Shown piece by piece: positions 27,397 to 60,700 of a stretch of 64,000 nt of DNA. The translations under genes were made by a program, and so were the position numbers. This DNA comes from Cheilinus undulatus (taxonomy: Eukaryota > Chordata > Actinopteri > Labriformes > Labridae): assembly GCF_018320785.1 (NCBI RefSeq), contig NC_054879.1, positions 42,584,698 through 42,648,697 on the forward strand, read 5' to 3'. Each line of letters opens with the position of its first letter. Position 1 is the stretch's first letter. The notes under the pieces were generated by a model. It was not told where the DNA came from. It searched no databases and saw only the letters and a list, made by a program, of their open reading frames with translations.

Positions 27397-27748
27397 ATGT
27401 CCATTGACAAGCTCCTCCCGGCTCTCCTGGAGTGTTTTGGAATAATAATATGCGGATACGTCGCAGGGAGAGCAGACATCATCACCTCCACCCAGGCTAA
27501 AGGATTGGGGAATTTTGTCTCCAAGTTTGCCCTCCCTGCACTGCTGTTCAAGAACATGGTCCTGCTGGACTTTGGTAATGTCATCTGGCCATTCCTGTGG
27601 AGCATCCTCATAGCCAAAGTGTGTGTATTTTTCATTGTGTGTGTCCTAACGTTGATAATCGCCAGCCCTCATGACCGCTTCAGCCAGGCTGGGATTTTCT
27701 CAATATTTGCAACCCAAAGCAATGATTTTGCTCTGGGATATCCCATAG
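27397..27748 (+). CDS. gpr155: GPR155 copy 1 exon 1: TM1 to TM3 of the permease domain
   Basis: Starts ATGTCCATTGAC in a good CCACCATGT context and ends in phase 1 at ATAG|GTAAGT. Residue 7 is Leu where copy 2 and human have Phe, directly before the conserved Pro of PALLECFG. Upstream bases 27368-27396 are clearly related to the copy 2 sequence coding YEEED. In copy 1 that segment is out of frame with the ATG, so the acidic N-terminal extension of copy 2 is absent here. Confidence 0.9.
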
Positions 27749-30700
27749 GTAAGTGTGAAACATGCAATCATATTATTTGTTCTTACACAAGAGGATTTGA
27801 GGAAAGAACAAACAACACCTCTCTGATCCTATAATGCTTATTACCTGATGTTAAAGCACAGAGGTGTTCCACTTGCTGATTGTTAGGGGGATTAAAGGAG
27901 CCTATTCTTACTCAGATTTAGTTGTTTTTTACAGGTTGTCACAAGCTATTAGTGGGCTTGGCCTACATAATATCCCAGGGTTACACGTGCAACTGTTTAC
28001 AAATGAAACTGCACATAAAGCAAAATTCTTATGCACGTTTTTATCATGTTAATGTGGAATATTTCTAAAGAATCATATAGCCTATATTCAGTCAGATGCT
28101 AGATGTGCTTCCTAGGTCTGAGCCTTTTATTTTTATCTTTATCCACAGTGGAGGCCATTTACAAGAAAACAAACCTATACTACCCCCAGTACATCTACCT
28201 GGTGGCACCTGTGTCACTGATGATTCTCAACCCCATCGGCTTTGCCTTCTGTGAGATCCAGAAATGGAAGAATCAAGAAACTCACCAGCAGAGCAAACTT
28301 TTGATCGTGGGAATTGTAATTTTGCAGGTCCTGAAAAACCCTATAGTGTTCATGGTTATCATCGGCCTCGTTGCCCACATCCTTCTGCAGCACAATATTC
28401 CTCCATTCATGAATGAATTTGTGGATTGCTTGGCTGACTCTTTTGGTGGAGCAGCTCTTTTCTACTTGGGTCTGTCCATGGTGGGTCAGATGCGGAAACT
28501 GACCAGGTCCACATTTGTTATACTGGTGTTACTTCTTACAGCTAAACTGTGAGTAAATATCTTCACTGCACCTAAATAATTCTTTTTATATAAATGCATG
28601 ATAATTACCAGTTAAATTATCATTATTTGCAACATCCATCAAACACCTATCTTTTCATGTGACTTTCAGGTTGCTAATGCCCTTGATCTGCAAGAACATG
28701 GTGGATCTGTTGGACCATACCAACGTGAGCGCTTTGAACCACTCCAGCCTCTCCAATTATGCTTTTCTTTATGGAGTGTTTCCCACTGCACCAAGTGTGG
28801 CCATCTATGCTGTCTATTATAACGTAGAGATTGAAGTTGTGAGTTGTTTACATCAGTTTGCCAACCCTCTTACTTCTTCTGATCAACTTTCCCCCTGAAA
28901 CTCACTCAACAATAATGTTGCTCTGTCTTTTAACAGGTAACCTCTGGGATGGTGATCAGCACTTTTCTCTCAGCTCCAATCATGTATGTTTCTGCCTGGT
29001 TACTGTCAATCCGTCAAATGGATCGGCAGCTTGTGATGGCTTCACTGCAGAGTGTCAGCTTTAACATCAGCATACTGAGCATAGTTTTACTGGTGAATCA
29101 CAACAAAATATTAGTGTATACTACAGTGCCTTCAAGAAGTATTCACCCCCTTTGATCGTTTACGGATTTTTTAAATCAATCATGGTAAAGATGATTTGAC
29201 TTGTTTTGACCAGGAAAAAAAAAAAACAAAAAAGACTCTTTATTGTCAAAGTGAAAACAGATTTCCACAAAGTAATTTCAATTAAATAAAAATGTTATGT
29301 AGAATAAGTGACTGCATAAATATTCACCCCCTTTAAAGTGACTGGCCTAATTTAACAGAGGTCTGAAGAATTGGTCCTTATTAGTGAAATGGGGATCACC
29401 TGAGTGCAGAAATGTGCAAAATGTGTCCCAAGTGATTGTATTTTAAAGACACATGGAAGGTGGAAGGAAGGACCGGTACACTCGTGCACTGGTTCATCAC
29501 CATTCCTGGCTACCATTACATCATGAAGACAAAGAAACATTCCAAGCAACTCAGAGAAAAGGTTATTGAGCAGTTTAAGTCAGAGAATGGATTAAAAAAA
29601 ATATCAAAGCCACTAAACATCCCATAGAGTTCAGTTAAATCCATTATCAAGAAATGGAAGGAATATGGCACATGTGTAAATCTACCTAGATCAGGCTGTC
29701 CTCGCAAGTGAATAACCGTGCAAGAAGGAGACTAGTGAGAAAGGCTACCAAGACACCTATGACTACTCTATAGGAGTTACAAGCTTCAGCAGCTGAGATG
29801 GGAGAGACTCTGCATACAACTGTTGCCCAGGCTCTTTACTAGTCAGAGCTTCATGGGAGATTGGGAAAGAGAAGCCACTGTTGAAGAAAACCCATATTTA
29901 ATCAGACTAGAGTTCTCCAAATGACATGAGGGAGACTCTATGGTTGAGTGGGAGAAAGTTCTTTTGTCTGCTGAGATCAAAACTGTGCTTTTTGGCCATC
30001 AGATGGAACCAAACACTGCACATCAGCACAAACTCCACTGTGAAGCACGGTGGTGGCAGCATCATGCTGTAGGGATGCTTCTCGGCAGCCCGCTCTGGAA
30101 GGCTTGTAAGGGTAGAGGGTAAAATGAATGCTGCAAAGTATAGGAACATCCTTGAGGACAATCTTTTTCAGTCTGCAGGAGAACTACAGCTTGGGAGACT
30201 TTTTTTTTTAGAAAGACACTGACCCTTAGCAAACAGCAAAAGCTACACAGAAATGATTTAAAGACAAGAAGAGGAATGTTCTGGAGTGGCCGAGTCAAAG
30301 CCCAGACCTTAATCCAATAAAGAATTCGTGGCTGGACTTGAAAAGGGCTGTTCACTCCTGATCCCCTTGCTACATGGCAGAGCTTGAGCAGTTTTGCAAA
30401 GAATAATGGAGTAAAAATGCAGTGTCCAAATGTGCAAGCCTGATTGAGACCTATCTACACAGACTTGGTGCTGTGATTGCAGCAAAGATGACTCTACTAA
30501 ATACTGACTTGAATAGGGTGAATATTTATGCAGCCACTTATATAATTCACATTACCTTATAGAAATCTGTTTTAACTTTGACATGAAAGAGTTAAAAAAT
30601 GTAAAAAAAGAAATAATGATAAGGGTAAACCATCCAAGGCAATGCATTCTTTTTACAGGCCCTTTAGAAGAGGTTGTTGTCGTCTTTCTATTTAGAAAAA

Positions 30701-33700
30701 AATAATTTGTTGAAAGATCTGATACTGCCTTATTTTTGGAGAAGAATGAGTCTAGTCTGCTGCATGATGTATCTAAATGATTAATAAGTGTACTTACCTT
30801 TGAACAGTCCTTAATTTGAAATCTGTGTTTTTCTGACAGATTTGGACCTTTGCTGTTATTTTTTTGACTAAGAAAGTCAAAAGACTACCTCATATGCTAA
30901 CAGCTAACCTCTTCCTAGCACAGGTGAGCACATACTTTATTCAACTGACACTACAGATCTGTATGTTGGTGAAACTTGCCTTTACCTTATGGCTTTTATA
31001 TTGACAAGTTTATAACCTGCATTGGGATGATACTTTGGACCTATGTGGCTCCAATGGACAACTTTGTCGGGCAGGTCCTGACTTTCACCATACTCTGTAC
31101 CTCACTTTACAGCACATATGTATGGCCAGGTATGCTATGAACATTTGAAAACAGACACATTAATCCTGCAGTGAACATTTTTTCTCATAGATATCTGAAA
31201 TCAATGCTTTGATTGCTATTTTTTCCTTTTTTCAGCCATAATAGCTCTCTCTCTTGTGCTCATGAAGAGGTTTGGGGATCTGAAAGTTTCACCAGGCATG
31301 CTGGTCCTTGCAGGGTGGGGGTGAGTCATTTCCATAATATAACTAATTTAAATCAAAGTAAAGTAGTTCATCTGGTCCACTTAGAGTTTAAAACCACAGT
31401 GCTTGCACAAGAGTAGGATTCGCATGGATGTTGTTCCTCTGTAAGTCCAGTACTGTTATGCAAGCCAGATTGGTTGACAGACATGACTGTATCAAGAGCA
31501 GAGACACTGCCCGTCGGGGAGAATTCAGCATCATCAGATCATTCAGTGGTCTGTTAAAATACCTTACTCATGTTATCAGAGAACCTGGGATTTCTCTGTA
31601 ACTTAAAGTTTGCTTAACCATTCTCCTAGCATCAAACTACTGAGGATGTAGTGATTCCCATATTGCCAGACAAGCTTGTCGTTAAGACTCAATGCCAGAC
31701 ATAAAGCTGAGATACCAGCAGCCCAATGTATATTTTGGCTGGATACACTTCTAAACACCTCCCAGGATGTTTGCAATGAATGAGTACATAGGTCAGATTT
31801 GACTTGAAGCCCTGTAATACTGTGGGCTGAAGAAATGGCACAGACTCGCCTCTTAAGAAGCAGCTGTTTTGTAATAGATTTCCATTGGAAGTTTTTGCCC
31901 CTGGCGCAAACAGCTGATCTGTTTTATTAAAGCTTTTCGTTTGGTCCAAATAAATGTGTAAGGCATGCGCTTGGCACGATTTGCATTACTGTGTTTGCTC
32001 AGGGGAAGAAAAAAGAAACAGTGTTAGGCAGTTTGGTCAAAAAGCAATATGTTGGCATGAAGGCATGATTATGCCTCATCTCTCTCACGCATCTCCTGTA
32101 TCAAACTGAGGATATTGAGGGTTAACTGAAAACACATGAACACTACAGATTCAATTAGCAGATGCCAACAGTGAATAGCTTCTGTTAGTAAAAGCTATTG
32201 CATACCTGAACTGTTTGGAAGCTTGTTGCTTATTTGGCACTTGGTATCCTCTTCATAACCAGATAGTGAAGCGGGGGTGATGCCTCAATGGCCACTCCTG
32301 ACTTGGCCACCCTATGGCTGGCAAAATAATATTACACAAAGTCCAGGGATTGGGATGTAACTGTCAGGATGGGCAGAAGTGCCTTTGTGTCTAGATGAGC
32401 TGTGTCCTAGTATGTAATTTTTTTGATGGACGATGGTTAGTGTGACGATGTAAAACTACCAGAAGCAGAAGCTAGCAGGCAGGAAGTTTAAGGCGATGAA
32501 GAAATAAGTGAAGGTCCAAATTCTGTGGCTGGTTCAAGTGAGTTTTATTCACTGCGTAGTGGAGAGAAGAAACTCACAGCATGGCTGGCAAGGTTCTCTG
32601 CTCCTGAGCAGGTTTGAGAGGAGGTTTTTAAGCAGGCTTGGGTGTAACAAAACTCCAGTATGGGATCAAAGAAGACTGACAAGATACCATTTGGTCACAT
32701 GCAGTACAGTATGCATGGGAAGACATACACATACAATCAACATTCGACATTTGCATTCCTATGTTGTTTCCTGGTCAAAAAATGAGGTGTGAAGAGTGAT
32801 CAGAGAACATATGGGTTCGTATTAAATTACAAGCTGATACTTGGGTCTACTGAATATGACATACAGTTCGACTTCCACAAAGGCATAGGTATTTTAGTTC
32901 TGTTTTTTACACTGCCTGGCCAAAAAAAAGTCGCCACCAAAAAAAGGTCACACTCTCTAATATTTCATTGGACCACCTTTAGCTTTGATTACAGCACGCA
33001 TTCGCTGTTGCATTGTTTCAATAAGCTTCTGCAATGTCACAAGATTTATTTCCATCCAGTGTTGCACTAATTTTTCACCAGGATCTTGTACTGATGATGG
33101 GAGAGTCTGACCACTGGGCAAAGCCTTCTCCAGCACATCCCAAAGATTCTCAATGGGGTTAAGGTCTGGACTCTGTGGTGGCCAATCCATGTTTGAAAAT
33201 GATGTCTCATGCTCCCTGAACCACTCTTTCACAATTTGAGCCTGATGAATCCTGGCATTGCCATCTTGGAATATGCCCATGCCATTAGGGAAGAAAAAAT
33301 CCATTGTTTAAGAAATGAGAAGTTACTCATTGCATCAGCTGGGGTTAAATAACTTGTTGCCAGCTGAAAGATAATCGCCCATGCAGTAATTATCCAATAG
33401 GAGGCTCGCACCTATTTGCTTAGTTAAATCCAGGTGACGACTTTTTTTTTGGCCAGGCAGTGTATTTCAGTTCTATGAGTAACTTGTAATGATAAGTGTA
33501 TAAGACCAGCTAAGATGACTGCCTGGATGCTGGGATATACTGAGAGCATTAGTTCAGGCAGACCACAGAGTTGAGCTCTGCCATATAATTTAGATCAGCT
33601 GATCCAAGCCCTCATCAGCTGATGGCTAGCTGTTTCACTTCAAAGGCCTTGTCCAGAGACAAAACGTTATATATCCGTTTCGTTTTGAAAAAGTTTTCCA

Positions 33701-36700
33701 TAAATACGAGATAGTTTGTTTGTTTGTTTGAAATGTCCACGTAAGCATGGAACCAATGAAAACGACTGGAAACGCTGTAGTATATATGCCAAGCCTGTAC
33801 GTGGCACTGTATTGCTGCCACGGAAATGCACCAAAAGAGAGAAGAAGATCACAGAAAACTGACACAGACTTTCTTCTAGTTGCCCTCCCGGTTGTTCTAT
33901 GTGTTGGATTTAAGAAAAAATTTGGTATGTTCTGTTCGGGTGGTGGTAAAGGAGCTTCAGATTTTGCTGTAAAAGCCATAATAAGCTCAGTAGCTTCTGC
34001 AGCACAAACACAACCCTGTAATCCGCCATTGTTGTTTTGGTTCAATACGCAGGTTAAGTGGCCTACGCTGTGTGTGACGTAATCGTTTCCATGTGGATGA
34101 AATGCCTATATGACAAAAAATGCATATACTCGTGAATTCGTCTCCGTGTGGACAGGGCCTAAGTATGGAGTTGGCTAATCACATTCATGCTGCCTTTTTT
34201 AAGCTACTCTCTGCTAGTCTCTGCTGCTCCTTCTGCAAGCCTCTTTTTGCAACCCTCCTCCAACCCAGCTCCTCCTTTATTCTGCATCTGACTTAAGCAA
34301 TGTAATTTGTTGTCACTGATGCCTGCTTTGCTCTGGGTTTATTTCTGCTTCTCTCCTTGCAGGCACAGGCAGAGCAGAAACATGTGCTGTTCCTTCTTCA
34401 TACTTTACACATAGGCTTGTGGAAGGGCAGGGGAATCCTAGAACAGCCACACCACAGAACATACATAACAACAGCAATAAGTGCAAACTAATAACGACCA
34501 ATAAGGAGAAAAATATTTATAACAGCAAATCATGTGTGTTTCTTGACAAAGTGGTCCTGGCTGAAATGGCTTTGTAGATGGGGCTTCTAGGTGAAAGTTT
34601 GAAAATCAACAGTTTTGGGGTGGCTGGAAATGCTTATGTGCTTGTGTCATGATCTGGCTCAGGTGGTCACAATAAAAAATGGAGACAAAACCATGGCAAA
34701 GTTTTAAACAAGTCTTTATTTTATCACATCAGACCAAATCAAACAATTCTCTAATTAAACCAAATTAGACCAAATTACCTAAAGTTATTTCAAGCAAGTA
34801 AAGACAGTAGTGTGTGTTGTGCATGAATGAAGTTCAAGTCTGTGTAAATGTTGTGAAATGAGAACATAACTAAAGCTCAACTTAATCTAACATAACTAAA
34901 CCAAAGTGTGATATACATGTGTGGAGGCCAGGTCAGAGAGAGAGGGTGTTTTTTCAAATCAACCCCTACACCCTCCCCCTCCGTGGTGGAGTGCACTCCA
35001 TCAGAAGTCACACTCGCAGCTGAGTGAAGTCCCCTTCGTCAAGGTGTAGGGTATATATATAGCGGCAAGCTTGGGGACAAACTTCCCTCTCTCAGCCGGA
35101 AACAGGAACTATGGCTTCGCAGCCGCATCTTGCGGGAGCGGCTGTTATTGCATTGATCCAGCAGCAAGAAAATGAGTGGATTAGATCGTACAGAAGGCGT
35201 AGGTGTCTAAGGCTTGAGTTTTTTTTTCTTTTTTGTAGCTCATATTAATATTAATATTATATATTAATATTAATGTTATATTAATATAATATTAATTTTC
35301 TTCCTCTTTAGTAAATTATATTAGTTTTAACTAATAAATGATTATCCTTTAATGTACTATTTAATGTTAATTCAGTTTATTGTAATTTAATCATCATGTC
35401 ATAGAACAGGTTGTCCGAAATTAATGCAAAAACAAGGATAATATATTTTAATGTCAGAGCAGCAAAAAGCTTCTTTTTTCTTGTAACTTATGTTTGTATT
35501 GAAATTTCACAGACATCAAAAACAATAAAACAGTCCCTGTAAATAAAAACACTTAACAATAAAATAAACACATCAGCCGTTTTCTGGACTAATGCAGGGT
35601 AGGCCCTCATTTGATACTCAATACCATGTACATTTGAAGTTGTAAATGTCTGTATGACCATCTTTATCTTAGTTTAACAGTGTTTGTACAGGCACTTGAG
35701 CAGAACTTACATCTGAAGGTTGCTTCTTCCATGATCACCACCGGACACAATGAGCGACGCACGTGTTCGGTGAGTCGGCATCAGTGCAGACTCGCTGGTG
35801 GAGGGTTTTATAGTCCACTACCACTCCCCGCTAATTGGTTTGGGACAAACTTAATATGGCGAACCCTCCGTGAAGACGCGCAAACGGAGGGATAGTGGGT
35901 AGGGAGAGTGTGTAGTGGTCGGTTTGAAAAACACCCAGAGAGTGTGTGACTGCTGGAGCTTGAATAACCTCCACAGCCCAGGTGTGTGACATTACTCTAA
36001 TCAGGGAGCTGCACTGATAGCCACAGGCTGGAGACACTCGGGCTGACAATACCAAACATCACATGATGTCATGGACATCACAGCTTGGTTTTACTGTTTG
36101 ATAACAGGCTTTCAGGCCAGTTGCTGTTGGCAATATGAAGTAGTAGCATTCCCCTTTCCCTGTGAAACCAAGACTTTATTTATACATGGGATTTAGTACA
36201 AGATACAGGTGTATAACTGTCTGGCCAACTGTGTTATGGTCTATCTGTGAGCTGCCCCATTAACAGTTGTGTCAACAGATATAACTTTCTGAATGAAAGC
36301 AGAGAAGATAGATTTGAATCTTATAATAAAGTTACATCAAATCATGTGTTAAAAGTGGATCCAGTAATGCTAGTCAATGAAGCTGCTATAATGGCTTTAG
36401 GCTACTGATGACACACAGAGGCTAATCTCAGAGATTTCAAGCAAATCTTTACAAAGAGGACGAAGATGTACTGAGGTGGTTTGGCTACCACCTAATATTA
36501 ATCCCTAAACAAAAGGGCTGCGTAATTATTCTTTCTCTATTAACAGGGTTCCAGCTTTAATAACAGCTGTGTTACTCTTTTCTGGGGAAAAAACATCCGA
36601 CACGATGGACTCAACATTCATTTATGGCAAGCAGCAGGTAACAGCATCAGAAATCATTCTTGACTTTTAGGATAGACATTTAAATACTTTTAAGTGAATT

Positions 36701-39700
36701 ATTTTACAGTTAGTATGTCTGTATTTATTTTTTGTCACAGATAATCTGCACCTCAGTGGTAGCTTTCCTCAGTATACTGCTGGGAGGAGGGTCTCTTGTA
36801 TGTCTCAGCAAAGGAAACAGGACCCCGCAAGAAAATGCTAGTGAAGGACCCTCTGCAGAGACTCTTGGAACTGAAGTTGAACCAGTGATCCAGACGAATT
36901 TTGAACCTGTCAGTCAATCAGGAGAGCTTTCCAGAGGTACACTTCTTAAGTAGATTTATGGAGTTATAAAGCTTATTATAGCAGCTTGATATTAAGGTAT
37001 TATGATAATCCAGTCTGGAGCTAAAGAAAACGTGATGTTGCATTTTCTGTGTCATTTTAATACAGGAGGTACTTGGCTTGTGGTAGTGAATGAAAAAAAA
37101 AGCTGCCTTTTTCAATAATCCAAAAAATAGACTTGGCTGTGAACAAAAACCATGTACTATGATGCTATTCATAATGAATATGGCATCAAATTAAGTATGA
37201 AGTTCTTTCTAAATTCATAGTATGCAATTTGGTGTATGCAAGAAGAGTCAGATGTACTGTATACTATGGCTAGAATATTTTAGTATGATACAAAGCTAAC
37301 TTGCCATACGTAACTACACCACACTGCATTGCAGTTTGTCAGTCAGGTAATCAATATTCCTGGCTACTATTACACAATGAAAACAAAAGAACACTCCAAG
37401 CAACTCAGAGAAATAGTTCTAGAAAAGTATAGGTCATCTGATTGTTAAAGCAATTCAGAGATTAGTATGTGTGAGGCTCATCTCTTACCACTTAAAGGGG
37501 ATGATGTGATTATCTCTCCTCTTATCAAAAGATGAGGGGACAATAAACATAAATGCGTCAGATAACACTTAAGTTTCAGTGTTGTATGCTGTGCTGTTGG
37601 TTTGGTAATAATTTCAGATTTCATCTATGAAGAATCAAATCAGTCGTAGTCAGTCAGAGAACAGCTTGTTGATATTAGTTCAGCTGTAAATAGCACAACA
37701 CGTACCAGAACTCTGCAAGGACTATCAGAAAATGTAACTCATAACTTGCAGTTTGAAATATAATTTAGTCGAACATCTGATTAGAACATGAAGCAGAATT
37801 TGTTAAATTGAGGTTGAATTTATTTTAAAACAACCGCTTTTGGTTTGCCACTTATTTGAAATATGTAAAAGATGGAGGACAAATGGTGGCAGGAAGTTGT
37901 TCCATCCTTATCTGCCATCAGAGGCTGTAACAGAGGAAGAATAGGGGGCGAAAGGCAGCGAATTGTAACAGTGCTGGGAAGTGGATTTATTTTGTAAATT
38001 TACCTACCCAGAAAAGCCTCACTGAGATTAAAAAAAAAAGTCCTATTTACAAAAATGTCCTGACCAAGACAGGCAGCAGCACAGTCAACAAGGTTACACA
38101 CATGACACATAGCCGTTACAATCAGATCAATCAATCCTGAGTCACAGAGCACAATGTCATTAGTCAAAACATCTAAAAACTGATGCATCTACCTCCAGTA
38201 TCTACTTTTGAAAAGATTTAAAGAGACCAGCTCCCCAGACACAAAGTCTCCTGCAGGACATTCCAAGCTGCATGAGCAGTGTACCTGAAACTCCATTTCT
38301 AATGATGGCAGAACCTGCCTCGCTGATTGTTCTAAATGGATGAAGAAACATCACCTTCGGCCCAGAATCTGAGTGTCATGGTTGATGACCAGCTAACCTT
38401 CAAGGTTCATGTGGCCTCGATTGCTTGGTCTTGCTGATTTCTCCTCTTTCACATCAAGAGGATCAGACCCTACCGGACAGAGCATGCAACACAGCTCCTG
38501 GTACAGGCTCTTGTAATATCATGCATTGACTACTGCAACTCATTACTGACATCCTAGCATGTGCGTTTAAACCTCTGCAGATGATCCAGAATGCAACAGC
38601 ACATCTGGTCTTCAACCAACCCAAGACAGCACATGCCACTCCTCCACTGTTCATCTCTCTACACTGGCTTTCAGTTGCAGCTCCCGTCAAATTCAAAACT
38701 CTAATCATTGCTTACAAAGCAGTAACTAAAACTGCTCCTGTTTACCTCCCTCACCCAGGTCTTCACTCTCTCTTGCCCACAATGCTTGGCCAGCAAAAAG
38801 GCTGCTGTTAATTCCATCATATCAGGGTCCTAAATCACTTGCTCGACTCGTCTACTCGATTGTCCCTCGATGGTTGGGAAACTCCATTCAATCCACAGAG
38901 TGCCCTTCTACTTGTAAGAGAGAGCAAAAGAACCAGCTCTTTCAAAAACACTATGCACTTAGCTAGACTCTAATCTGTTGTTGTCCCCAGTGGAAGTATG
39001 AGTCTACCATATGCAGTTGGCTTGAACTGTCCCAGTCTACTTTGAGAGGTTTTGCGCCCAGCTCTTTGTGAGTGACCCAGCACTTGGTTCTTTGGTCATT
39101 CTTTGTTGGTGAAGGCGAATTGACTTGCTTTGGACAAAAGCATCTGCTAAATGACATTATAACACTGCAAGAACCTTTGGCACTGTTGCAGAATCACAAG
39201 CAGTAAAGAGCTAATGTTTACAATATCTGCTCTGATGCCCCCCTCAGGTCAAGGGGGGAACAGCTGCTCGTCCAAAGACTGTCTGCTTGTTCGTATGGAA
39301 AACCTCCGTCAGGCTCCTGATGGACAAGTGGCCCGTCATGAGCTCTTGTGTCTGCTTCTGACTGTCAGCTTGCTGGCTGTGAGTAAACCACCACCTTTCA
39401 CTTCTACAGTGACATGAAGTCAGTGTTAGCTGTCTGTGTTATCATATTGAGTGCATCATATAATCAGATTCTGTTAGCTGAGATATTGTTTCAGCTTCTT
39501 GTCTTCTGGAAAACTACTGGAAATCTGTCAGGTATTTATTATGGTATGATGTTATTAAAGAACCAGAATTGTTGATGTAACTAATTCTCAATAAATCACG
39601 GCGACATGATCAAGTCCTCCGGACAGTTGCTGAATCCATCTGCAGCACTGTTAACACCTGCCGGAAGACAAAGCCAACCAGCAACACCATTCAAAGAAGG

Positions 39701-42605
39701 AGACAAACAATACAACACCAAAATTCTTGTTCTTTGCTTTTAAGAGAAGCACAGCAAATTTGGTTGTACACTGTGCAATGACAATAAAGGGTATTTGATT
39801 TGATTCGATTCGATTCAATTCGATTCTAGAGGACTAGAGGCTAGAAGTAGACCTTGGAAAGCAGCTGCATTTCCCCTCCAAGATTGTCGAGACCTATCTA
39901 CAGCCAGACATTGTTTTATGCTTGGCCTCTTCAAAACATGCCCTCATGCTTGAGCTCACCCTGCCTTGGGAAGAACGGATGAAGGAGGCGCACAAGCAGA
40001 AGAGAGCAAAGTATGAGGAACTGAGAAACAGCTGCCAGAGAATAGGCTGGAAAGCCAAGTGTTGGCCCGTGGAGGCTGGGTGTTGAAGCTTTGCAGGGCA
40101 GTCACTCTGTAGCACATATATACGACACTGGACATTGTGGGAGAGGAGGAAGAAAGAGATTTCCACCACCACAGACACAGCTAAGAAGGCGTCAAGATGT
40201 CTCTGGTTAAGGAGGGCAGATCCATCTGTTGCTGCTAGGGCACAGGCACAGGGTCTGATCAGCCTTTGTTGGGTTGTCTGGGTGAGGGTGTATGATGTTT
40301 GAAACACCCTGTGACCCCAGGTAGCATCATCAGCTGTGTTTCCATTGCCCTTAGAAATGTGCAAAATCTAAACAGTGCAATTAAAAAATGGTAATGGTAA
40401 TGGAAAAACCTCTCAAATACTGCTAAAAAGTTTTTATGCTCTCACGGTGTCACGTGACCAGTTCAATCCGAGACAACATGGCATGGACAGAAAAGGAGAC
40501 AGAGACTTTTCTTAACATCGTACTTATACCTGTATACGTGGCTTTTGCAATACATATGGACCTTGCCCCTGAACTATTATCCATTACCTTCGTCTTTTGT
40601 TCAAAATTGTCAAGGCAACTGCTGTAGATGTAATCACACCTGTACCAACACGCAACAGGTTTATAGCGTCAAGCTTCCTTGAGTCTCATCAGCCGAGATT
40701 TTACGAGAATTGCAAGGCTCGTGCCCAAAGCTCCCCTCAAGGGAAACACATTCAAAGTTTAATTTGTACTCAGTTGAAATGTAAGAAATGTCGCTTTTAT
40801 TTTGCAAAAAATGTAATGCAGACGCAGCTACTGACAGTGTGCCCTCTGTAGCACTGCAGGTTTATCTGAAAGCAGTAAATTTCAAGGTTTTGGTGAATAA
40901 ATTGTTCAAACAACAGCAACTTAATACTGTTTAAAGTGGTTGATCTCACTCAGCTGGTTCTACTTCTGTCAACTGCGTGATTCTTTTCTATTAGAAAGAT
41001 GAAGTCGCTCTTATTTGTTCTTATGGCAGAACTTATCCAGCTGCTTGTGGTTGCTCTTTTACCATGTTCCTGGTAAACTATACTTGGAGCTGCAGTTCTT
41101 CTGCGCTGTGGCCAACTATGGACAGGTGGGTAATAAAGAAATATTACACACAAGATTTACCTGCATTTATTGTCATGTAGTTGTCATGTCATGGTGTGTT
41201 TTCTGTTGCCAGGGGTTTCTCTCTTTTGCTGTGTTTGGTCTGGACAAGCACCTGATGATATTGCTATTTCGAAAGAGGTGAAAACACATTTTGTCACAAT
41301 CTAAAGCAGAGGTTCTCAACTGGTCGGGCATAAAGACCCTGTGCCACACCCTTGATGACAAAAATCTCAGCTTTTCAATTATGAAAACAAATATTTTTAA
41401 TGAAAAATAGGGCAATTTGTACCTGACACGCCTGATGGATTTGTTTCACACATCCATCTGGTAAACCACCCATAGACAGCATTTGGGAAAGGGCAGAGCC
41501 TTTGAAATAAAACTCGGAGGGTGAGTGGATGAACGTTCTGTGTGTCACATCTTGATGGGCCAATCAGAGCAACAAAACGTGACGTCGTAGCTGCTGCTAC
41601 TGAGGAGTAAACTCCATAGAGAGCTGCATAATGCGAACCATGGTGACTGTAGACATGTCAGTACACGACTTTTGTGGTTTTTGAAAAGAAAACAACTCAC
41701 TGTTCTTTGTTCTTTGTTCTTCTTTTAACGAAGAAATGTGGTCAGGTTCTGATAAACCTAGGGCTTTAGCAGCAGCCACGCTAATCTCTTCCACCATAAT
41801 TGCAACGGTCTTTTGTTGCTGCTTGCTTACCTCACGACTCCACTGCACCCGAAAGTCCTGCTGCTCAACGCTGATTGGTCCTGTCACTTTCTAACCCGGC
41901 TCAAACGGTTCAGATGGGAGCTTTGCAAGATAGATTTGCCAGTGAGCAACACGGAAACAGGCGTATCCATCTGCTTTGCAAGGTTGGGGCAATTTTGATT
42001 TGAGATGGAACAAGAGATGTGATAGAAAAACAATGAGACATATCCTTCAAAATAAAAGCACATTATAGACTTGTTGCAAGCACACATCTGTGACCCACTG
42101 CGAATGGTTTTGCGACTCACTTTTGGGTCCTGACCCACCTGTTGAGAGCCGAGAATCTAAAGCATCATGGAAGTATAGTGTTAAACATTATTTACTCTAA
42201 ATTTATACAGCGTGAAAATTACACTTAAAAGCTTGTTTTTCCATTGTTGACAGGTTTGGACAAAAAGATTTTGATATTAAAATAAAAGTGCCTATCATGG
42301 CCCCTAAGAGGAGATGGGCTAATCGGGCCGTAAAGAAGAAGAGGCCTTTTAAGACCCCTGTAGAGACCAAGCCAGAGGAGATCCTTCCAATCCCACAGAA
42401 AATAAGCACCAGCAGCCCAGAGAAAAAGGATCCAGGGCAGGTGGGTTCAACAGTGGAATATGTACAAGAGGAGAAAAAGGTGATGATTCATTACCTGCCC
42501 CATGTACGTGATCTGCCAAGAGCCAAGGAGGATCCTAGACCCAGTGGGAGTGAGACAAAACCACAAGGGAAAGACATTAAGAGGAAAAAGAGGGTAAAAA
42601 AATGA
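27397..42605 (+). CDS. gpr155: GPR155/LYCHOS-like protein lacking the DEP domain (copy 1)
   Basis: The family is a lysosomal membrane protein that fuses a PIN-like permease domain to a GPCR-like domain, senses cholesterol and signals to mTORC1 through GATOR1. Thirteen exons: 27397-27748, 28149-28548, 28670-28838, 28937-29092, 30840-30923, 31009-31129, 31236-31320, 36547-36637, 36741-36936, 39248-39378, 41030-41125, 41213-41277, 42254-42605. Phases all agree; the total is 2298 nt, or 765 aa plus TGA. Landmarks: [15 protein letters not shown] (TM1), [61 protein letters not shown], and [14 protein letters not shown] in the last helix. Exons 2-9 have exactly the lengths seen in copy 2. Unlike copy 2 there is no Cys-rich loop exon between 36936 and 39248 and no DEP domain; the last exon encodes a Lys/Pro-rich tail. 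Frames are unbroken, so the gene may be functional. Gene identity is sure; the terminal exon is less sure. Confidence 0.88.
29124..30663 (+). mobile_element. Degenerate Tc1/mariner transposon in GPR155 copy 1 intron 4
   Basis: The left end is TA|CAGTGCCTTCAAGAAGTATT. Transposase frame pieces are visible: [20 protein letters not shown] and ISKPLNIP of the helix-turn-helix, then a body with stops and frameshifts that includes a [13 protein letters not shown] block near 30040. The right end near 30660 is decayed. The element is dead and roughly full length for the family (about 1.5 kb). Confidence 0.8.
32910..33462 (-). mobile_element. Internally deleted Tc1-type element with perfect ends
   Basis: CACTGCCTGGCC at the left and GGCCAGGCAGTG at the right are exact inverted repeats, flanked by TA on both sides (32908-32909 and 33463-33464), as expected for Tc1/mariner insertion. 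On the minus strand, 33304-32957 encodes the C-terminal third of a transposase, including a [16 protein letters not shown] block with the last catalytic acidic residue. The N-terminal DNA-binding and first catalytic regions are missing. It is non-autonomous, but its ends look young. Confidence 0.85.
33644..34162. mobile_element. MITE-like element, family A (copy in GPR155 copy 1 intron 7)
   Basis: The left end GGCCTTGTCCAGAGAC and the right end GTGTGGACAGGGCC are inverted. The interior is the reverse complement of 11455-12003. Three overlapping minus-strand ORFs and one plus-strand ORF belong to the repeat and are not genes. Confidence 0.65.
34944..35934 (+). mobile_element. DNA transposon with about 50-bp inverted ends, possibly Harbinger-like
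   Basis: The left end GGGTGTTTTTTCAAATCAAC matches the reverse complement of the right end (GTTTGAAAAACACCC), with imperfect pairing continuing through a CTCCCTCCG-type stretch. Inside, 35112-35205 reads [19 protein letters not shown] and then [12 protein letters not shown] before a possible splice site. This resembles the N-terminal exon of a Harbinger-type transposase. No catalytic region is recognisable, so the class is tentative. Confidence 0.5.
37345..37445 (+). repeat. Tc1 fragment in GPR155 copy 1 intron 9
   Basis: About 100 bases closely match 29505-29580 of the larger Tc1 element, covering the CACTCCAAGCAACTCAGAGAA segment that encodes the transposase N-terminus. No ends are present. 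Confidence 0.65.
38345..39165 (+). pseudogene. L2-type LINE 3' end, reverse transcriptase relic
   Basis: Frame pieces read [10 protein letters not shown], then after a frameshift [30 protein letters not shown] and similar blocks that belong to the C-terminal part of an L2/Maui-like reverse transcriptase. The segment ends with a TTTGGACAAAAGCATCTGC and TAAATGACATTATAA tail typical of that family. Frameshifts and stops show it is inactive. It is inside GPR155 copy 1 intron 9, where the loop exon of copy 2 has no counterpart. Confidence 0.75.
39590..39830 (+). repeat. LINE 3' tail with GATTC tandem end
   Basis: A 3' untranslated stretch ending TGTGCAATGACAATAAAGGG is followed by repeated GATTCGATTC words (39795-39826). 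This is the tail style of Rex1/CR1-like fish LINEs. No coding sequence is retained. Confidence 0.55.
40336..40830. mobile_element. MITE-like element, family B (copy in GPR155 copy 1)
   Basis: Reverse-oriented relative of 16806-17402, beginning GTGTTTCCATTGCCCTTAGA. It shares the GTCACGTGACCAGTTCAATCCGAGA-type and GCTTTTGCAATACATATGGAC-type blocks. The right boundary is approximate. Confidence 0.6.
41307..42154. mobile_element. hAT-type MITE with 8-bp target duplication
   Basis: The ends are CAGAGGTTCTCAACTGG and, at the right, CCTGTTGAGAGCCGAGA, which are imperfect inverted repeats. ATCTAAAG occurs immediately outside both ends (41299-41306 and 42155-42162), the 8-bp duplication expected of hAT elements. 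Length 848 bp. Minus-strand ORFs inside are not recognised as transposase. It sits in the last intron of GPR155 copy 1, ending 99 bases before the terminal exon. Confidence 0.85.
42254..42605 (+). CDS. gpr155: GPR155 copy 1 terminal exon: novel Lys/Pro-rich tail
   Basis: A TTTTTCCATTGTTGACAG acceptor precedes an open frame that joins in the correct phase to exon 12 (AAG AG|G TTT). It runs 117 residues to TGA at 42603-42605. The product begins [16 protein letters not shown] and contains basic clusters [15 protein letters not shown] and KRKKRVKK, with Pro/Glu/Lys-rich sequence between them. No DEP signature is present. The first two residues (RF) equal those of copy 2 exon 14 (RFSRLW), so the acceptor may be ancestral and the body new. 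The exon is richer in G+C than its flanks and has no stop over 352 nt, which favours coding. It could instead be a chance open frame in a gene truncated by the duplication. Confidence 0.6.
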
Positions 42606-43672
42606 AAGACTTTCATGGTTAAAGCTGGTAAGAGACAAATGACTTTCTAACACCGGTGTTTAATTCTTTTCTGTGACGGTATTTTTAAACAATGATGATT
42701 GTAAACCAATATGCATGAATAATAAGTGTGTCATTTATATGTGTTTTGAAAATAGTGGTGCAAAATGATGGTGATTGACACTAAATTTAAATGATTTAAC
42801 TTAATTTTTTAGTTAAAGGTTAAAAATAAGATTTAAATACTAGTAAAATTAAGTAGTAGTTTTATTTGTCATTAGGCAATGTTCTATTGGTGTAGGTCCT
42901 TCTGTGCTGTCATGTCTGAAAACAGGCCTTTGCTTTTATGTTTTAACCATCACTATATCTTGGTTTCTTCTACGGCCGCTGACAGGGAAAAATGTGGAAC
43001 AGAGGCTGGATTTTGCTCTCTTACAGAAAAACAAAAACATGTTTTGTATTTTACTAGACACCTAAATGGTGCCAGAAGCTGTCTACTTTTGTAATTATTG
43101 GTCTTTGAAACAACAACTAAAATGCTGTTTAATCTGATAATGTGATTTTCTTTTTTGGGTGAACAGTGCTGTTATTGTTTGTGTAATTCTGAAAGTGGGC
43201 TCTAAAGTGGATCACTAGAATAATAAGAGTATTTGAGACCAAGGAACAGCTCTCCCTTGTGGCTGCCTGAAAACTGCTATAAGTAGGGACCCAAAATACC
43301 AAAATTATGATTGGCTAATTACCCGATCAGGCAGGACTTGTACTACAATAACTGTTCAGGCTGTTTAGTTTAATTTCAGCATTATGTTTCCTTTTGTTGT
43401 ACTATAAACTGTGAACTTTGCTTCCTCTCTTCTTTTTGAATCCTTTAAGGATTTCAAGATTGCCACTGATGCTCTACTTTTTATAGTTGAGGAATAAATA
43501 CAGTATTATGAACATAGAACCCCTTCTCTAATCTCTCTTCAATTTAAAGCACATGAACAAAACTCATCTTCCTCTATTCTTCTCTTTCCTCTTTTCCTTG
43601 CCATCTATTTTAATTTAATTACTATTATTTTTATTTGATCACACTTTTGTTTCTATGTAAATGTTTCTTAAG

Positions 43673-44562: not shown

Positions 44563-44880
44563 CTGTGGTCAGATTCCTTGTATACACCTGACCAGTAAAG
44601 TGAATACGTTTTCTAATCACAAACATACAGCAACTATGTGTGGCATTTTAGTTTTTAAACATGAAAAAATCAGAAGGAGGGTTGATGCATGGTAATGCTG
44701 GAAAATATTTTTTCTGCATTACACTGCCATCTAGTGGTAGGAGACAGACTGTTCTTCCAGTTTGATATGCTCAGATTGTTTCTCTATTTTTACCTCTGTT
44801 TTTAAATATCAGATTTCAGCAACTAAGACGATCTCTGTTGCAATCAGCAGGATGTCTGCAGTGTTATTGTATCTTCTGTC

Positions 44881-51368: not shown

Positions 51369-51795
51369 ATGGAGGCGCAGGGCGGAACTACAAACTTTCT
51401 ATATGAGGAGGAAGACTCGGACTCCTCTGCTGTTTCAGGCACCATGTCTATTGACAAGCTCTTCCCGGCTCTCCTGGAGTGTTTTGGGATAATATTGTGC
51501 GGATACATCGCAGGGAGGGCAAACATCATCACCTCCACCCAGGCTAAAGGATTGGGAAATTTTGTCTCTAAGTTTGCCCTCCCAGCACTGCTGTTCAAGA
51601 ACATGGTCGTGTTGGACTTCGGTAATGTCATCTGGCCATTCCTGTGGAGCATCCTCATAGCCAAAGTGTGTGTGTTTTCCCTTGTGTGTGTCCTAACGTT
51701 GATAGTCGCCAGTCCTGAGAACCGCTACAGCAAAGCTGGGATTTTCTCAATATTTGCCACCCAAAGCAATGATTTTGCTCTGGGATATCCCATAG
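51369..51795 (+). CDS. gpr155: GPR155 copy 2 exon 1: acidic N-terminus and TM1 to TM3
   Basis: ATG at 51369 opens [20 protein letters not shown] before the [15 protein letters not shown] block. Phe is kept before the TM1 Pro. The GTG three bases earlier is not needed as a start. An internal Met at 51444 corresponds to the copy 1 start and could be used as a second start. Confidence 0.88.
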
Positions 51796-54700
51796 GTAAG
51801 TGTAAAGAAAAAATACCACCCACATTTTTCTTTTTATCCTCTGAGACAATAATCATGCTCTCCTAATGTTGCCCCATCATGGAACCATAATATAATTACC
51901 CATGACAAACAGAGCTGAAAATTGCTACTTTCAGGACCCTCCTGTATCAACAAATTGCTAATGCAGGAAAACGTTCCCACGGTGAGGAGGTGGGGTTATT
52001 TTTGAGCTAAATAGTCATTATTTTATCCTCAAACTGGAGGATTTTACAGAAATATAAACACAACTCTCACCATATTGAGCCTTACCTATGGTTTAAAATT
52101 GTGGTTTATATAAGTTATCGACAAAACTGGTCAGACTGCACAGGCTTGAAAGTTTTGCAACAAAAGGTTTTAGTAAACTGGAGGCCTGAAGCAAAGACTA
52201 ATATAAGGCCCCTCCCTGTTTAATATTTTGAAGGATCTCCCTTCAGGTAAAAAAAGCCAGAGAACTACAGGAAATGCCTATTTCTGAAATATGAATACCC
52301 AAAAAAAAAACACAACAAAACTTGCTCATCAGCTTTGGAAAAGCATCATAACTTAAACTCACCATATCTTATATTTTAATATTTAACATGTGTTTTACTT
52401 GTAACTTAGGAGAATAAGCATTTGCTTTATATTAGAGTAATATTCATTGCTATGATAAAATTATACACACACCGTGAGTGCAATTCATTATTTCAATGTG
52501 TCGATAGGGATCTACAGTCATGGACGAAAGTATTGGCACCCCTGGAATTTTTCCAGAAAATACACCTACAGAAAATACAGCTTGTCGTTCTAGTGTTTAC
52601 AGAAAAAAGAATGAGACCTACAAAGAAAAGAACACAGTACCTACAGTCAAACATGGTGGAGTTTGAAAGATGTTTTGGGGTTGTTTTGCTGCCTCTGGCA
52701 CTGGGTGCCTTGACTGTGTGCAAGGAATCATGAAATCTGGAGACTAAAGTTTTTGGGCCAGAATGTAGGACCTAGTGTCAGAGAGCTGGGTCTGTATTAG
52801 AGGTCATGGATGTTCCAGCAGGACAATGACCCCAATCATACCTCAAAAGGCACCAAGAAATGGTTGGAGACAAAGCACTGGTAAGTTCTGAAGTGGCCAG
52901 CAATGAGTCCGGATCTAAATCCCATTGGACACTTATGGAGAGATCTCAAAATTGCTGTTGCAAGAAGGCACCCTTCAAATCTGAGAGACCTGGAGCAGTT
53001 TGCAAAAGAAGAGTGGTCCAAAATTCCAGTTGAGAGGTGTAAGAAGCTTGTTGTTGGTTAAAGGAGGCGATTGGTTTCAGTTATTTTTTCCCAAGGGTGT
53101 GCAACCAAATATTAAGTTAAGGGTGCCAACAATTTTGTCCGGCCCATTTTTTGAATTTTGTGTAAAATTATGTCAAATTTTGCTATTTATTCACTCTTGG
53201 TCCCTTTTTTACATTAAGAACACATGCCTCACTAAAATCACTGAAAGCAGTTTAAAGGTACACTTTGTAATACTGAGCATAGTAGCATTTAGCAGACCAA
53301 ACTTGGCAAAATAATATTTATAAGCAGACCTCTTTAATCACCAGAATATATATTATATTGTTTCACTAAATATTATGTTCCTGTTTTCACCAAGTTTGCT
53401 TTGTTTAATGCTGCTAGGCTAAATATTACACACTGCACCTTTAAGATATGCACCTCATATTTGATGCATATCCTGAAGTCCCTTGGAGAACAGGCCCCTA
53501 GGCAGTTGCCTTTATTTGCTAACTCAAATCAAATATTATCTTAAGACACTTAACAGGAAGAATAGATCTAGATCGGTAATTCACCATGAGCTCATCACTT
53601 GCCTTCTTTTAGCAAAGCAACTTCCTTTTAATAGGAGGAAACCTCAAGCAGAACCAAACTCATGCATAACAGCCATCTGTTGAGATTGTGCTTTAACAGA
53701 TTTATTGCTTGACTAAAGAGCATTTGGAACAGCCACAGTTCTGCATGTTGTCTGTAAGGCCTTTCCACTGACTTGTTGCCTTTATAGAGGACATTAGCAG
53801 CCATAAAACAGTCTGATGAATCAAGTACAGAACAATCTGTTACAGAGGTTATTCCGGTGCAGAGTAGTCAGAGTAAGGCCCAGTCTCAATGTGCACACTC
53901 ACACACTCACTGTGACGTATGACAGGGATTCCCTGGGGACGGTAAACCCTATAAAAGTAAAGTGAAAAGTCCGTAAGAGTTCAGGGTTTAGGGAGGAGAT
54001 TGAAATTAAGCCTCACATTCATTAAAGGTGCAATGTGTAAAATAAGGAATTATTAGCAACATCATCCAGATTCTACATTGTGATGCTCACTTCTGGTGCT
54101 ATCAGTGGCAACCAGTGGAATTAAGAATGGGTTTCTGTTATTTGATGACATCTGTGGTACTGTAGAAACATGCAAGATTCAAAAATCAAAGATGGCAGAC
54201 TCCATGGAGGAATGCAAGAATAAAAGGCTTATTTTAAGTTAATAAAAAAATTTTTTTTTTATATAATCAGGCAATCAAAATTAATTTAGATAGTCCTATT
54301 TCTAAATATTATTTTACTGAGTTTGTTCCATTAAATGCTAAGCTAAATATTTCACACACTACACCTTTAAACTTCTGATTAAATTTCTAGAAAGAATCTT
54401 TCTTTCACTTCAGCAAATGAATCTTTGGTTTTAGTATTTGTTCCAAGTTTGAAAACTTTATAAGTTTAGCTTTTGTTTTGGTTAATCAAAGGGAAGCTGT
54501 GGTTAAATTTGTGTTTAGGCTGATCTTTTTGCTAAGGCTGGCAATTATGTATAGACTTTAATGACAGGATTAATCAGTCAGATATGAACGAAAGTGCCAC
54601 ATGCTAAACAATTTGCAAGTTCATCTTGACAGTAGATATTTTGTATTTTTTAATTACTTCAGTACATTTGTGCTGCATTTTAACATGTCAGATTCCCAGT

Positions 54701-57700
54701 AGGTTTTGCTGTATTTGATCCGCTTTTCTTCATCTTTATCCGCAGTTGAAGCTCTGTACCAGAGCACATACCCAGAGTACCTTCAGTACATCTACCTGGT
54801 TGCACCTGTGTCCCTGATGCTTCTCAATCCCATTGGCTTTGCCTTCTGTGAGATCCAGAAGTGGAAGAACCAGGGAGATCATCAGCAGAGCAAACTCCTG
54901 ATAATGGGACTTGTAGTGTTACAGGTCTTGAAGAACCCCATTGTATTCATGGTTATCATCGGTCTCATCGCCCACTTTGTCCTACACCAGAGGATCCCTG
55001 CATTCATGGCTGATTTTGTGGATGGTCTGGCAAATTCCTTCGGAGGAGCAGCTCTCTTCTACTTGGGTTTGTCCATGGTGGGCCAGTTAAGGAAACTAAC
55101 CAGGTCTACATTGGTGACACTGATATTACTTCTTACTGCTAAACTGTGAGTGGAAAAACACTTCAGTATTCTTTGGAAATTGTTTTGTTGTCAAACAAGT
55201 TTGGTTTCTATGATGATGCATACTCTAGGACTGCACAGAGTCAGCAAGTTAGAGATTACTGTAGTCCAAGTATGTTGTTTTGAGCGGATGGTTTGGATAA
55301 TGGCCTTTCTCAGACCACAAGCCTTTTACACAATGGCTGACATGTGCATGAGTATGCAGAATGATAGCAAGTGCTTTCAAAATATGCAGTAGCTCTTCAT
55401 TTCTCAGTCATCCCATCCAAAAGTAATTGTCTTTTCATTTGACTTTCAGGTTGCTAATGCCCCTGATCTGCAAGGACATGGTGGATTTGTTGGACCATAC
55501 CAACACCAGCGCTTTGAACCACTCTAGTCTCTCTAATTATGCCTTTCTTTATGGAGTGTTTCCCACTGCACCAAGTGTGGCAATTTACGCCGTCTACTAC
55601 AACGCAGAGCTAGAAGTTGTGAGTAGTGTTTATCTCATTGCACACCGACAAACATTCAACTATTTGAACAACTTTTCCCTTTAGCTCTAAATGTTTAAAT
55701 TATTTTTGTCACAGGTAACCTCTGGGATGGTGATCAGCACTTTTCTGTCGGCTCCAATCATGTATGTTTCTGCCTGGCTACTGTCAATCCCATGGATGGA
55801 TCCACAGCTTTTGATGAACTCACTGCAGAGTGTCACCTTTGACATAAGCATTGTGAGCTTAATAGCACTGGTGAGTCAAAAAACATACATGCCACTGTGA
55901 CTACATACTTCAGATTAGTTTATTTTAGCTTATCATTTATAACTAACTAATTCCTCTTTGTGTGAAAACTGAGATCACAGGGAAGTTACAAAACAGGTTT
56001 ATCCTGCTGTATGTCAATACAGATATTACACAAGACTTTTTCCTTCTTGCATGGTGACATTTAGGAGCAACGGAGTAAAATTATAAAGATATTCTTACAT
56101 TTACTTTAAAAATGTTTGAATGATTGTTAACTTTAAGATTGCAGTGTGAGAGCAAACAGATACCCCACTGGCTGCCAGACTTACTTCCCTTTTATGGTCA
56201 CTTTCAGCATTTCATTTAGGGAACCTGAAACTAGTGGCTATAAAAAGTAAGAAACTTGAAACAGATGCAAAATGCATGCAAGCCTCTGTAGTTTGCTTCA
56301 TTATATTATGAAATAGGAATTCAGTGTTTTGGTTTAACATCAAACCATTGTTTCTCTGACAGGTGTGGACCATTACTGTTATATTTCTGAGTAAGAAATT
56401 CAATCGACTACCTCATGTGTTTACAGTCAACCTGTTCTTGGCACAGGTAAGCATATGCCTTTATTTGTCTAAACTCTACTCCTTTGTCTTTTGATTAAAG
56501 TTGACACCTGTTCTTATATTGTCTCTAGTTTATAAGTTGCATTGGGATGATCCTTTGGAACTTTGTAGTCAAAGAGGGCAACTTTGTTGGGCAGGTCCTG
56601 ACTTTCACATTACTCTGTACCTCACTCTACAGCACCTATGTGTGGCCAGGTATGCTCTGAATGTGCTCAACAACCTCCAAGCAAATACTTCACCTTTACC
56701 TTAAACACTGAAATTTTCCAGGAAGCATTGAAATCTGAAGTTTCATGACTTGTGTTTGAATGATTATCTTGTTCCAGGGTTGATAGCTCTCTCTCTTGTG
56801 CTCATGAAGAACTATGAAGACCAGAAAGTTTCACCAGGTGTTTTGGTGCTTTTAGGATGGGGGTGAGTTATTTTGAAAAGTGATTAATGTAGAGATTCCC
56901 AAGCTTTTTTTTTTGTCAGACTCCCTTTTAAATATTTAATAATTTTATTGTTTGAAATATTTTCAGCACCCCCACTCTACAATGTACATATCAACATGTA
57001 AAAAATGTAAACATGACAAACACATGGTCAGTCATGATGTTTGCAATTACTTTTTTATATTGTTATTTTTGAAATAATAGCAGTCGCCTTAAACAGAGTT
57101 TTAAAACTCTGACTCTCTGAAGATGAAAAATTCCTGGAAAATAAAAAACTCAATGAACATCTTTAAGATTTGTATTCCCAGTCCTGCAATAATTTCAGTG
57201 ACTGCCGTGGCCTCATTTGGCGCTACAGATCTTCTCGAGACTTGGATGCAGCTGTGAGACTGTCAGTTAATTTTCAATGTCCAACCTTGACTTGTTTTGT
57301 CTAGATTGAGGCAACAGAAGAAAAACCTATCTCACACAGTAGGATGTTGTATTATTAAAAAAGTGGGGCCCGGGCTCTCCTGCCTTGCAACGTTTACTCC
57401 TTTCTGCTGCAATTCTAAATGAAGACTTAAGCACTATTTGCATGGGATTAGTATTAATCTAATGGTAAATAGAAACCTCTTGTTACTTTTAACAGTTTTG
57501 TGCAGTTGATGTTGTGAATGTTATTCTGCACTTTATAAATTTGGGATCATTACGCAGCCACCTTCCTCACAACAACCTTCCTTGTGCAGAGCACAACCAC
57601 TAAATGTTGAGCGACACATTTCAAATCAGAAATTTATTAATTAGAAATGTACAGATAAATAATAATGATATAAGATCAGGCACTTGCAAGGACAAACTGT

Positions 57701-60700
57701 AGGAAGCAGAGCAGAAGCACTGTGCGTATAAAGAGAGTACAGCACACATTTGGACTGTAGAGTTTAAGTAATACGTTAAGTAAGTTAAAGCCACTTTTAC
57801 ACATGCGCTGAAATTAACTGAAAGACACGCTCTGTTTATAACCTTTATGTGTCAAAACTTCATTGATCTGCCTCTATTCAAATTTTATCAGAAAAAGCTG
57901 CATGGATTGTAAAAAACCTAAGTTACAGAGATATCGATTTGCACAAGATTTGACTTACCTGTGGGCCTCTGTGTGCGCTGAACCATTCTAGGTAAATGGC
58001 CCTGGAATTTTCCCTCCACAAATTACAGAGATGGTCAATTCGCACAGGATTAAAACACAGACGTCCTGTGCCAATGTTAGACGTGACTGAAGGTCCCTTG
58101 GTAATACTAATCCCATGCGAATAAAGGTCCTTGCCCACCAGATGTGATTTTTTCCCGGGAATAATTCACACAAAATTTTTAATTTTCAAACCTGTACCTT
58201 TTTTTATTTTGCTCAGACAAGCACACATTTGGCACCAGCTAGTGTTTTGAATGGCCAGGGTTGTGCTCGTCTGAACAAAACTTTGAAAAAAATCAACCAT
58301 GATTTGAAAAAAAAACCCCGCAATTTTGCTCTGGGAAGTTGCGTTGCTGGTGTGGAAGCTTGCTTTGATTTGCTACACTTTAGAAAAATGAACATTGAAT
58401 TTAAAATCATGTCTGGTGTGCAAAGACCTTTATTCGTGTTGCCCTCAATGCTAAAAGGCCTTAAGGCATAAGTCTTGGACTTGGACTCCAATCACATTGT
58501 TGATTGTGAGGAAAAATAAATGGTCTGATTCTCTTCTAGAGTGCTGAAGTCATCATCTGGTGTTCCTTAGTTGCCTTGCTGTGTCCCCCTGTCCTGCCCA
58601 TTTTTGGAACCATAGAATTTATAAATAAATCATAAATAGGTGACCTGTCAAACAAATATTGTAAAACCTGCACATGCGGTAAAGTGAAATACACATGTTG
58701 GGACATTTAGCACACAAAGAGTTTTAAAGGCCCATGAGAGTACAAAAGAAATTTAGCAGAGAGACTGCCAACCTAGTTTATTATAAATCACGAAAACAAA
58801 CTTTTAAATTTCCTGTGTATTTAATCTTGACCACATTTTCCCTGACTTGGTTAATGTTTAATGTGTTTGACGTTATATTAACAGGGTTCCAGCTTTAGCA
58901 ACGGCTGTGTTACTGATTTCTGGGGAGAAAATGCCTGATATGATTGACTCGTCCTTCTTTTATGGCAAATCACAGGTAAAAATATAAGTAGAGGTCATTC
59001 TCCTGTGTTCTGCCTTGTAAAATCATTTCTTTCTAAAATGGTGTAAATTTTGTAAAGGCTGCATGTCTGTATGTGTTTTACAGATAATCTGCACTTCAGT
59101 TGTAGCTGCCCTCAGTATACTGCTGGGTGGGGGCTCTCTTGTGTGTCTAAGTAGAGGAAGTTGGGCCAAAAATGAACTTATACAAGAAGGAAACTCCACA
59201 GAGGCTCTTGTGACTGAAGTTGAACCAGAAAATGACAATCCATTTGTACCTGCGGCTCCTTCAGGAGTGCCTAACGGAGGTATAGTGGACTTTTTTAGCT
59301 AACTTTTGCATTAATGTTTACTTTTGATCACATTAAATCATGACCAGGTTATTTATTTAATGCAGGGGTAATAAATGGCCATTTTATTGCATGCAGAGGC
59401 TGCTTATCTGAAACAGTCTGTCAGGGGTCATAACCTACGTTTGAGAGTAAGAAAACAACACTATCAGAAATCCAAAGAAAAACTGACTCTTATCTGCAGG
59501 TCATCTTCAGCAAACTGTTTCTTAAGCAATTCTTGTGCCTGTTCTTTATCCGTCTGTGGATTAACTTCAGTTACACAAGCAGACAAAAAAAAAACAACAG
59601 CAGTGCAGTTACAAAATCACCAAGTAACCACAGAAGAGGCAAAAACAATAGGGAAACATTGGATTTCATAATCTGGGAACATGATATGAGAAGTTCCTTG
59701 TGAGTTCAGTTCTTTATTTGAAGTATGGTGCTTCAGAGACGAGGGACTTTTGATTGAATCTCTTAGATTGAAATTTGTTTCACTTTGAAATGGCTTGAAA
59801 GGAATGTAATCATATCAGCCAGATGATATTAATAGATGCAAACCATTACAGCATGTGTTAAAGGGAAACACTTAGACTGTGATTAGTGGTCTACTAGTTC
59901 TTTACGGTCTACTGTAACTCTTGATTTATCATTGTTTTCACTATTTATGCCGTATGCTGGTGCAAAAGTTGCTGATTATAGAATATAGTACAAGATGGGA
60001 ATTATGGAAAGAACAGATCATGAAGAAAAAGTCTAAAAAAATACATTTTGATTAAAACAGTCCTGTTTAAATGTCATTCAAACCAAAAAAAGATGAATGT
60101 GCATGTGTTATTAAGCTCTGATTTATAATAGTAGTCAACTTTAGATTGTGTTTATTGCCTTTTGCATTTCCTGAGCTCACTGATAGAAAGGATAATGCAG
60201 TAATAGGGTCAAGAATCACTCTTTCTGTTATCACTCTGTTATCAGCATGCCTCATATGTGACTGTGCACCAGCCCAGCCCATGCCTGACATGATCATCAG
60301 CACAAACATGAATGACACAGCAACACTCCCAGGTATTGTTTGATAATCAACAGACGCTTGTTTCCATTCTGTGTTGACTCAGAATTAAACCCCATTAAGT
60401 AACATAAAAAAGGAACCACTTTCCTGTAAGCTCTGTGTCCAGTTTTTAAATAAATCTCTGCTTCGCTGTCAGGACACTGAAAAATTCTAATGTTACAAAT
60501 TGATATAAAGAAGCAATCACCAATGCTCAAAGTAAGCACCAAACATTTAAATGTCAGAAAGAGCTCTAACTTAGCTCTGCTCTGCTGCCACCTTCAGGTC
60601 AGTGTGAGAACAGCTGCACATCCACAGACTGCCTGCTTGTTCAAGTGGAGGAGCTCCAGCAGGTCGCAGATAGACAAGTGGCCCGTCATGTGCTCTTGTG

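Follow-up and report, generated by a model that had tools for sequence, protein, structure and literature searches.

Human GPR155, or LYCHOS, joins a transporter-like part to a GPCR-like part and ends in a DEP domain, which is generally conserved among GPR155 homologues (PMC12716839). A review (PMC11574030) describes a LYCHOS dimer in which the membrane helices make most of the contact and DEP a smaller part, places the binding of GATOR1 at a cytosol-facing loop, and calls it unknown whether the DEP domain meets G-protein subunits. In mouse, one report assigns DEP to the end of Gpr155 variants 1 and 5, implying other variants without it (PMC9330825); by that implication these would be DEP-less, as is one of the two genes described below, although the mouse forms are splice variants of a single gene, whereas in the present case it is an entire gene copy that lacks a DEP exon nearby. 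A paper on turbot lists gpr155a, and no title among the literature matches listed describes a DEP-less GPR155 gene in fish.

The window, by which we mean the whole 64-kb stretch of Cheilinus undulatus DNA analysed (C15:42584698-42648697), holds two gpr155 genes arranged head to tail on the forward strand (Table 1); searches beyond it covered the 1.17 Gb assembly in 46 contigs. The flanking genes look like CHN1 (RhoGAP by Pfam; L005 2943) and CHRNA1 (13304-24541 of the window), with CIR1-like and SP9-like genes (C2H2 fingers by Pfam; L002 8439, L003 3588 and 8212) downstream of copy 2. The domains were computed; the names of these four neighbours are our presumption. WIPF1 and SCRN3, neighbours of GPR155 in human, are not among the genes noted here. 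The CHRNA-like gene contains an open frame of 269 codons (18064-18873) whose product looks like a coiled coil, an intron of each gpr155 copy holds a transposase-like fragment with an SPDLNPI motif (30278-30352 and 52885-52959), presumably Tc1-like, and a repeat occurs in both orientations between the copies (43671-44564) and again upstream of copy 1 (25708-26145; 72–90% alike). An Rfam search of the 64-kb window gave no match.

Table 1. Features of the two gpr155 genes, in window positions unless a flanking piece is named
Feature	Position	Strand	Basis
gpr155 copy 1, exons 1-6	27397-27748, 28149-28548, 28670-28838, 28937-29092, 30840-30923, 31009-31129	+	splice sites and phases equal to copy 2
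gpr155 copy 1, exons 7-12	31236-31320, 36547-36637, 36741-36936, 39248-39378, 41030-41125, 41213-41277	+	splice sites and phases equal to copy 2
copy 1 intron 12, 976 nt	41278..42253	+	splice sites; holds inserted repeat
inserted repeat	41298..42164	.	flanking 11-bp direct repeat and inverted ends
copy 1 candidate terminal exon 13, Lys/Pro-rich tail	42254..42605	+	open frame, phase, acceptor, codon-position signal
first AATAAA after tail stop, possible polyadenylation signal	43493..43498	+	pattern scan of 42601-46500
gpr155 copy 2, exons 1-12	51444..61296	+	splice sites, phases; human alignment
copy 2 exon 13, linker plus start of DEP	61421..61558	+	splice site, phase
copy 2 exon 14, rest of DEP	L002 223-415, stop 416-418, just past the window		flanking sequence

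Exons 1 to 12 of copy 1 (27397..41277) encode a 648-residue membrane part. When the two genes are assembled by their splice sites, all 12 exons agree in length (352, 400, 169, 156, 84, 121, 85, 91, 196, 131, 96 and 65 nucleotides) and phase, and 513 of the 648 residues are common to both. Copy 1 aligns with the transporter-like and GPCR-like parts of human LYCHOS chains (for example PDB 8u54_A and 8y56_R) over query residues 1-534 and 531-650, with a best E-value of 1.3e-243. The PIN-like ten-helix transporter domain is recognized both by Pfam (Mem_trans, 85.5 bits against a cutoff of 25.7) and by the human alignment, and the alignment with the human chains, which continues to query residue 650, places a GPCR-like seven-helix part behind it. 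The proposal in the initial annotation that this paralogue keeps the membrane part is thus borne out by twelve intact membrane exons and a human alignment along their length. A frameshift suspected in exon 11, where frames overlap in both copies, was dismissed once the human alignment gave the right frame.

The copies differ at the amino terminus, where copy 2 has an in-frame upstream ATG (open frame from 51333) and with it a possible extension of about 24 residues ahead of MSIDK, whereas a stop nine codons upstream of the MSIDK start of copy 1 (27373-27748 region) leaves it a shorter N-terminus. Upstream of exon 1 the copies resemble each other in patches, and the likeness is lost gradually some 200 bases ahead of the ATG (27194 with 51109). 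Exon 1 itself (27397-27748 versus 51444-51795) has diverged far less than the remainder of the two genes, with 92.6% of bases shared, and dS is about 0.2 over the first 120 codons versus 0.37–0.91 further on; judged from this pattern, gene conversion is possible. Among the exons, conservation between the copies is lowest (70% of bases) in exon 9, which carries the putative GATOR1-binding loop. Among five human residues that we take to be parts of the cholesterol site (F43, P44, E48, Y57 and F352), copy 2 keeps all, and copy 1 keeps four and has leucine at the position of F43.

Averaged over the lineages of both copies, the NG86 method gives a dN of 0.126 and a dS of 0.460 (dN/dS 0.27), and YN00, an average in the same sense, a higher ratio (0.142/0.338). 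Of 506 columns aligned with human, 297 are identical in all three proteins; copy 1 alone departs in 35 and copy 2 alone in 12, and the remaining 162 show other patterns of difference. Copy 1 has therefore changed faster than copy 2 at the protein level (35 versus 12 positions, p = 0.001), a bias also present over the final 68 membrane-part residues (6 versus 0), and these comparisons suggest a gene that evolves faster and is nevertheless constrained on average. They also bear on the possibility that copy 1 is decaying toward a pseudogene and that the tail described below is a chance frame. The faster protein change, the absence from copy 1 of any in-frame equivalent to copy 2's upstream ATG and N-terminal extension, and the missing DEP domain would all suit such decay, but 648 codons free of stops and frameshifts, GT-AG ends at every one of the 11 introns that separate exons 1 to 12 and the NG86 ratio speak against it, and we regard it as quite unlikely.

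Beyond exon 12 the two genes part. Human LYCHOS ends in DEP, and so does copy 2, in which the domain is split over two exons, the first in the window and the other immediately beyond it; joined, they score 61.1 bits with the Pfam DEP model (cutoff 32.7). Copy 1 ends instead in an unrelated basic tail; Pfam finds no DEP in it, tail included, and a DEP search of the sequence between the copies gave no match at E-values up to 1 and chance-level matches at values up to 20 (for example 45617-45760, E = 4.4). The tail was also considered as a remnant of DEP and rejected, there being no significant match; against exon 13 of copy 2 its DNA reaches a local score of 24.0, compared with a shuffle mean of 24.1. 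The sequence of copy 1 downstream of exon 12 has weak matches to that of copy 2, the best covering 86 bases at 64%. Of the initial proposal that the duplication removed the DEP exons, the contrast between a copy without DEP and a copy with it stands; duplication as the cause is not established; no remnant was found and the matches are weak. This sequence pattern would fit a duplicated segment whose end lay short of the DEP exons, and also a later loss of these exons from copy 1.

The tail exon is defined by an open frame and by its splice sites. The donor of exon 12 (AAAGAG/GTGAAAAC, after 41277) is in phase 2, and an acceptor (TTGACAG/G) ahead of 42254 restores the frame, which is open from 42216 and runs for 117 residues, the first codon being split, to a TGA at 42603-42605; the in-phase junction proposed in the initial annotation is accordingly confirmed at the level of the sequence. 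The donor scores 7.5 bits and, with a matrix made from the other 23 junctions, the acceptor 10.5 bits, both inside the range of the other junctions, and the next best AG within 41290-42605 scores 5.4 bits. Elsewhere in the window, on both strands, an in-phase frame of at least 117 codons follows none of 149 acceptor-like sites at 8 bits or more, 2 of 400 at 6 bits or more and 4 of 913 at 4 bits or more. An open run of 116 codons has a chance probability of 0.0019 given the dinucleotides of the tail itself and of 0.00005 given those of the 1 kb downstream.

Intron 12 of copy 1 owes its length of 976 nt to an inserted repeat, bounded by an 11-bp direct repeat (AATCTAAAGCA, at 41298-41308 and 42154-42164) and with inverted ends at 41311-41330 and 42131-42150. 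From its ends and a target duplication of 8 bp or longer we take it to be hAT-like. It is a multi-copy element: its middle part (about 110-690 of 848) is matched at 84–87% by at least 39 further genomic sites, a figure obtained from 40 of 10,451 candidates scored and from 41 matches listed, less the window itself and one 32-base piece. The ends of the repeat have no match at these 39 places, so that its limits are those set by the direct and inverted repeats of the window. With the repeat removed, intron 12 measures 120 nt, compared with 124 nt in copy 2, and the tail exon therefore occupies the place of the first DEP exon in copy 2; the likeness of this intron between the copies, likewise without the repeat, has a z of 1.0, the other six short introns ranging from 0.4 to 3.6. 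Transcripts of copy 1 might instead end within intron 12, leaving the tail unused and the receptor both DEP-less and tail-less, with LLFRKR at its end. The presence of the repeat in this intron would suit such an outcome, as would the open frame from 41003 that runs through exon 12 and stops at once (TGA 41279-41281), but the ordinary strength of both splice sites, the 120-nt intron that remains without the repeat and the open frame beyond it make this unlikely.

Coding signal within the tail is uneven. Its bases are distributed unequally over the three codon positions beyond what is seen in stop-free Markov sequences (p = 0.003; T makes up 6% of first positions), and 18 hand-picked decoy open reading frames gave p-values of 0.011 or more. 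When the tail is cut in four, p falls below 0.05 in one piece only; the test is weak at this length, one of six true coding stretches of copy 1 failing it (p = 0.30). The synonymous-codon score of the tail is high, being reached by 1 of 34 decoys (hand-picked from the 83 open reading frames listed for the window, the 18 above being drawn from the 34), but it gives no frame-specific support, because two further frames of this DNA give similar values (0.094 and 0.121, versus 0.110 in frame). The same frame could also belong to an independent small gene of 102 codons, starting at the ATG at 42297, whose context (ATCATGG) looks strong by eye; since the open frame extends beyond this ATG on its 5' side and crosses a strong acceptor in the correct phase, we consider this very unlikely. 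Finally, exon 12 of copy 1 might also be joined to exon 13 of copy 2 by read-through, giving a DEP-bearing fusion and making the tail one of two alternative ends. The phases would allow it, with a phase 2 donor at exon 12 and a phase 2 acceptor at 61421, but the 20 kb between them contain the whole of copy 2 and a possible poly(A) signal at 43493, and such a fusion appears highly improbable.

The predicted tail protein (116 residues counted) contains 22 lysines and 9 arginines, 31 basic residues compared with 15 D and E, together with 14 prolines, and has a pI of 10.2; the earlier description of copy 1 as ending in a basic tail of 117 residues without DEP agrees with this composition and with the Pfam result. 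A structure model built from the single sequence without an alignment, weak evidence as such, has a mean pLDDT of 65.5, a pTM of 0.14 and neither strands nor helices as long as four residues, and weakly suggests disorder. The protein search that the initial annotation had proposed found no relative of the tail in Pfam, NCBIfam or PDB, libraries that hold no vertebrate proteomes and so say little on fishes, and its one match in the genome was the tail itself. The possibility that the tail derives from a repeat or from some other gene was rejected, there being no second protein match genome-wide and no DNA match in the window; in the flanks the tail has short weak matches only. Viral contigs gave 41 pattern matches, none of them confirmed.

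On balance, copy 1 is probably a protein-coding tandem paralogue of gpr155/LYCHOS, in which a 17-helix membrane part is followed by a disordered basic tail of 117 residues in place of DEP. This presupposes that the splice from exon 12 to the tail exon is used. By analogy with human LYCHOS, the protein would reside in the lysosomal membrane with its tail in the cytosol, where the polybasic segment could be held by charge to the acidic cytosolic membrane face and serve as an electrostatic anchor. Loss of DEP would then take away the lesser part of the dimer contact, and cholesterol sensing and contact with GATOR1 via the cytosolic loop could in principle persist in copy 1, provided that the account of the dimer and of GATOR1 in the review (PMC11574030) holds in this species. 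We advance more tentatively, as a possibility that we lean against, that one LYCHOS paralogue of this fish lineage has undergone a selected, permanent swap of DEP for a new polybasic tail that anchors it to the membrane, which would alter its dimer contact and its output.

For annotation, copy 1 should not be labelled simply a truncated gene model. A paralogue that has the sensor part but no DEP, beside one that bears DEP, would allow the two to be compared in one animal, and, if the swap is true, this locus would amount to a natural experiment on the role of the LYCHOS DEP domain.
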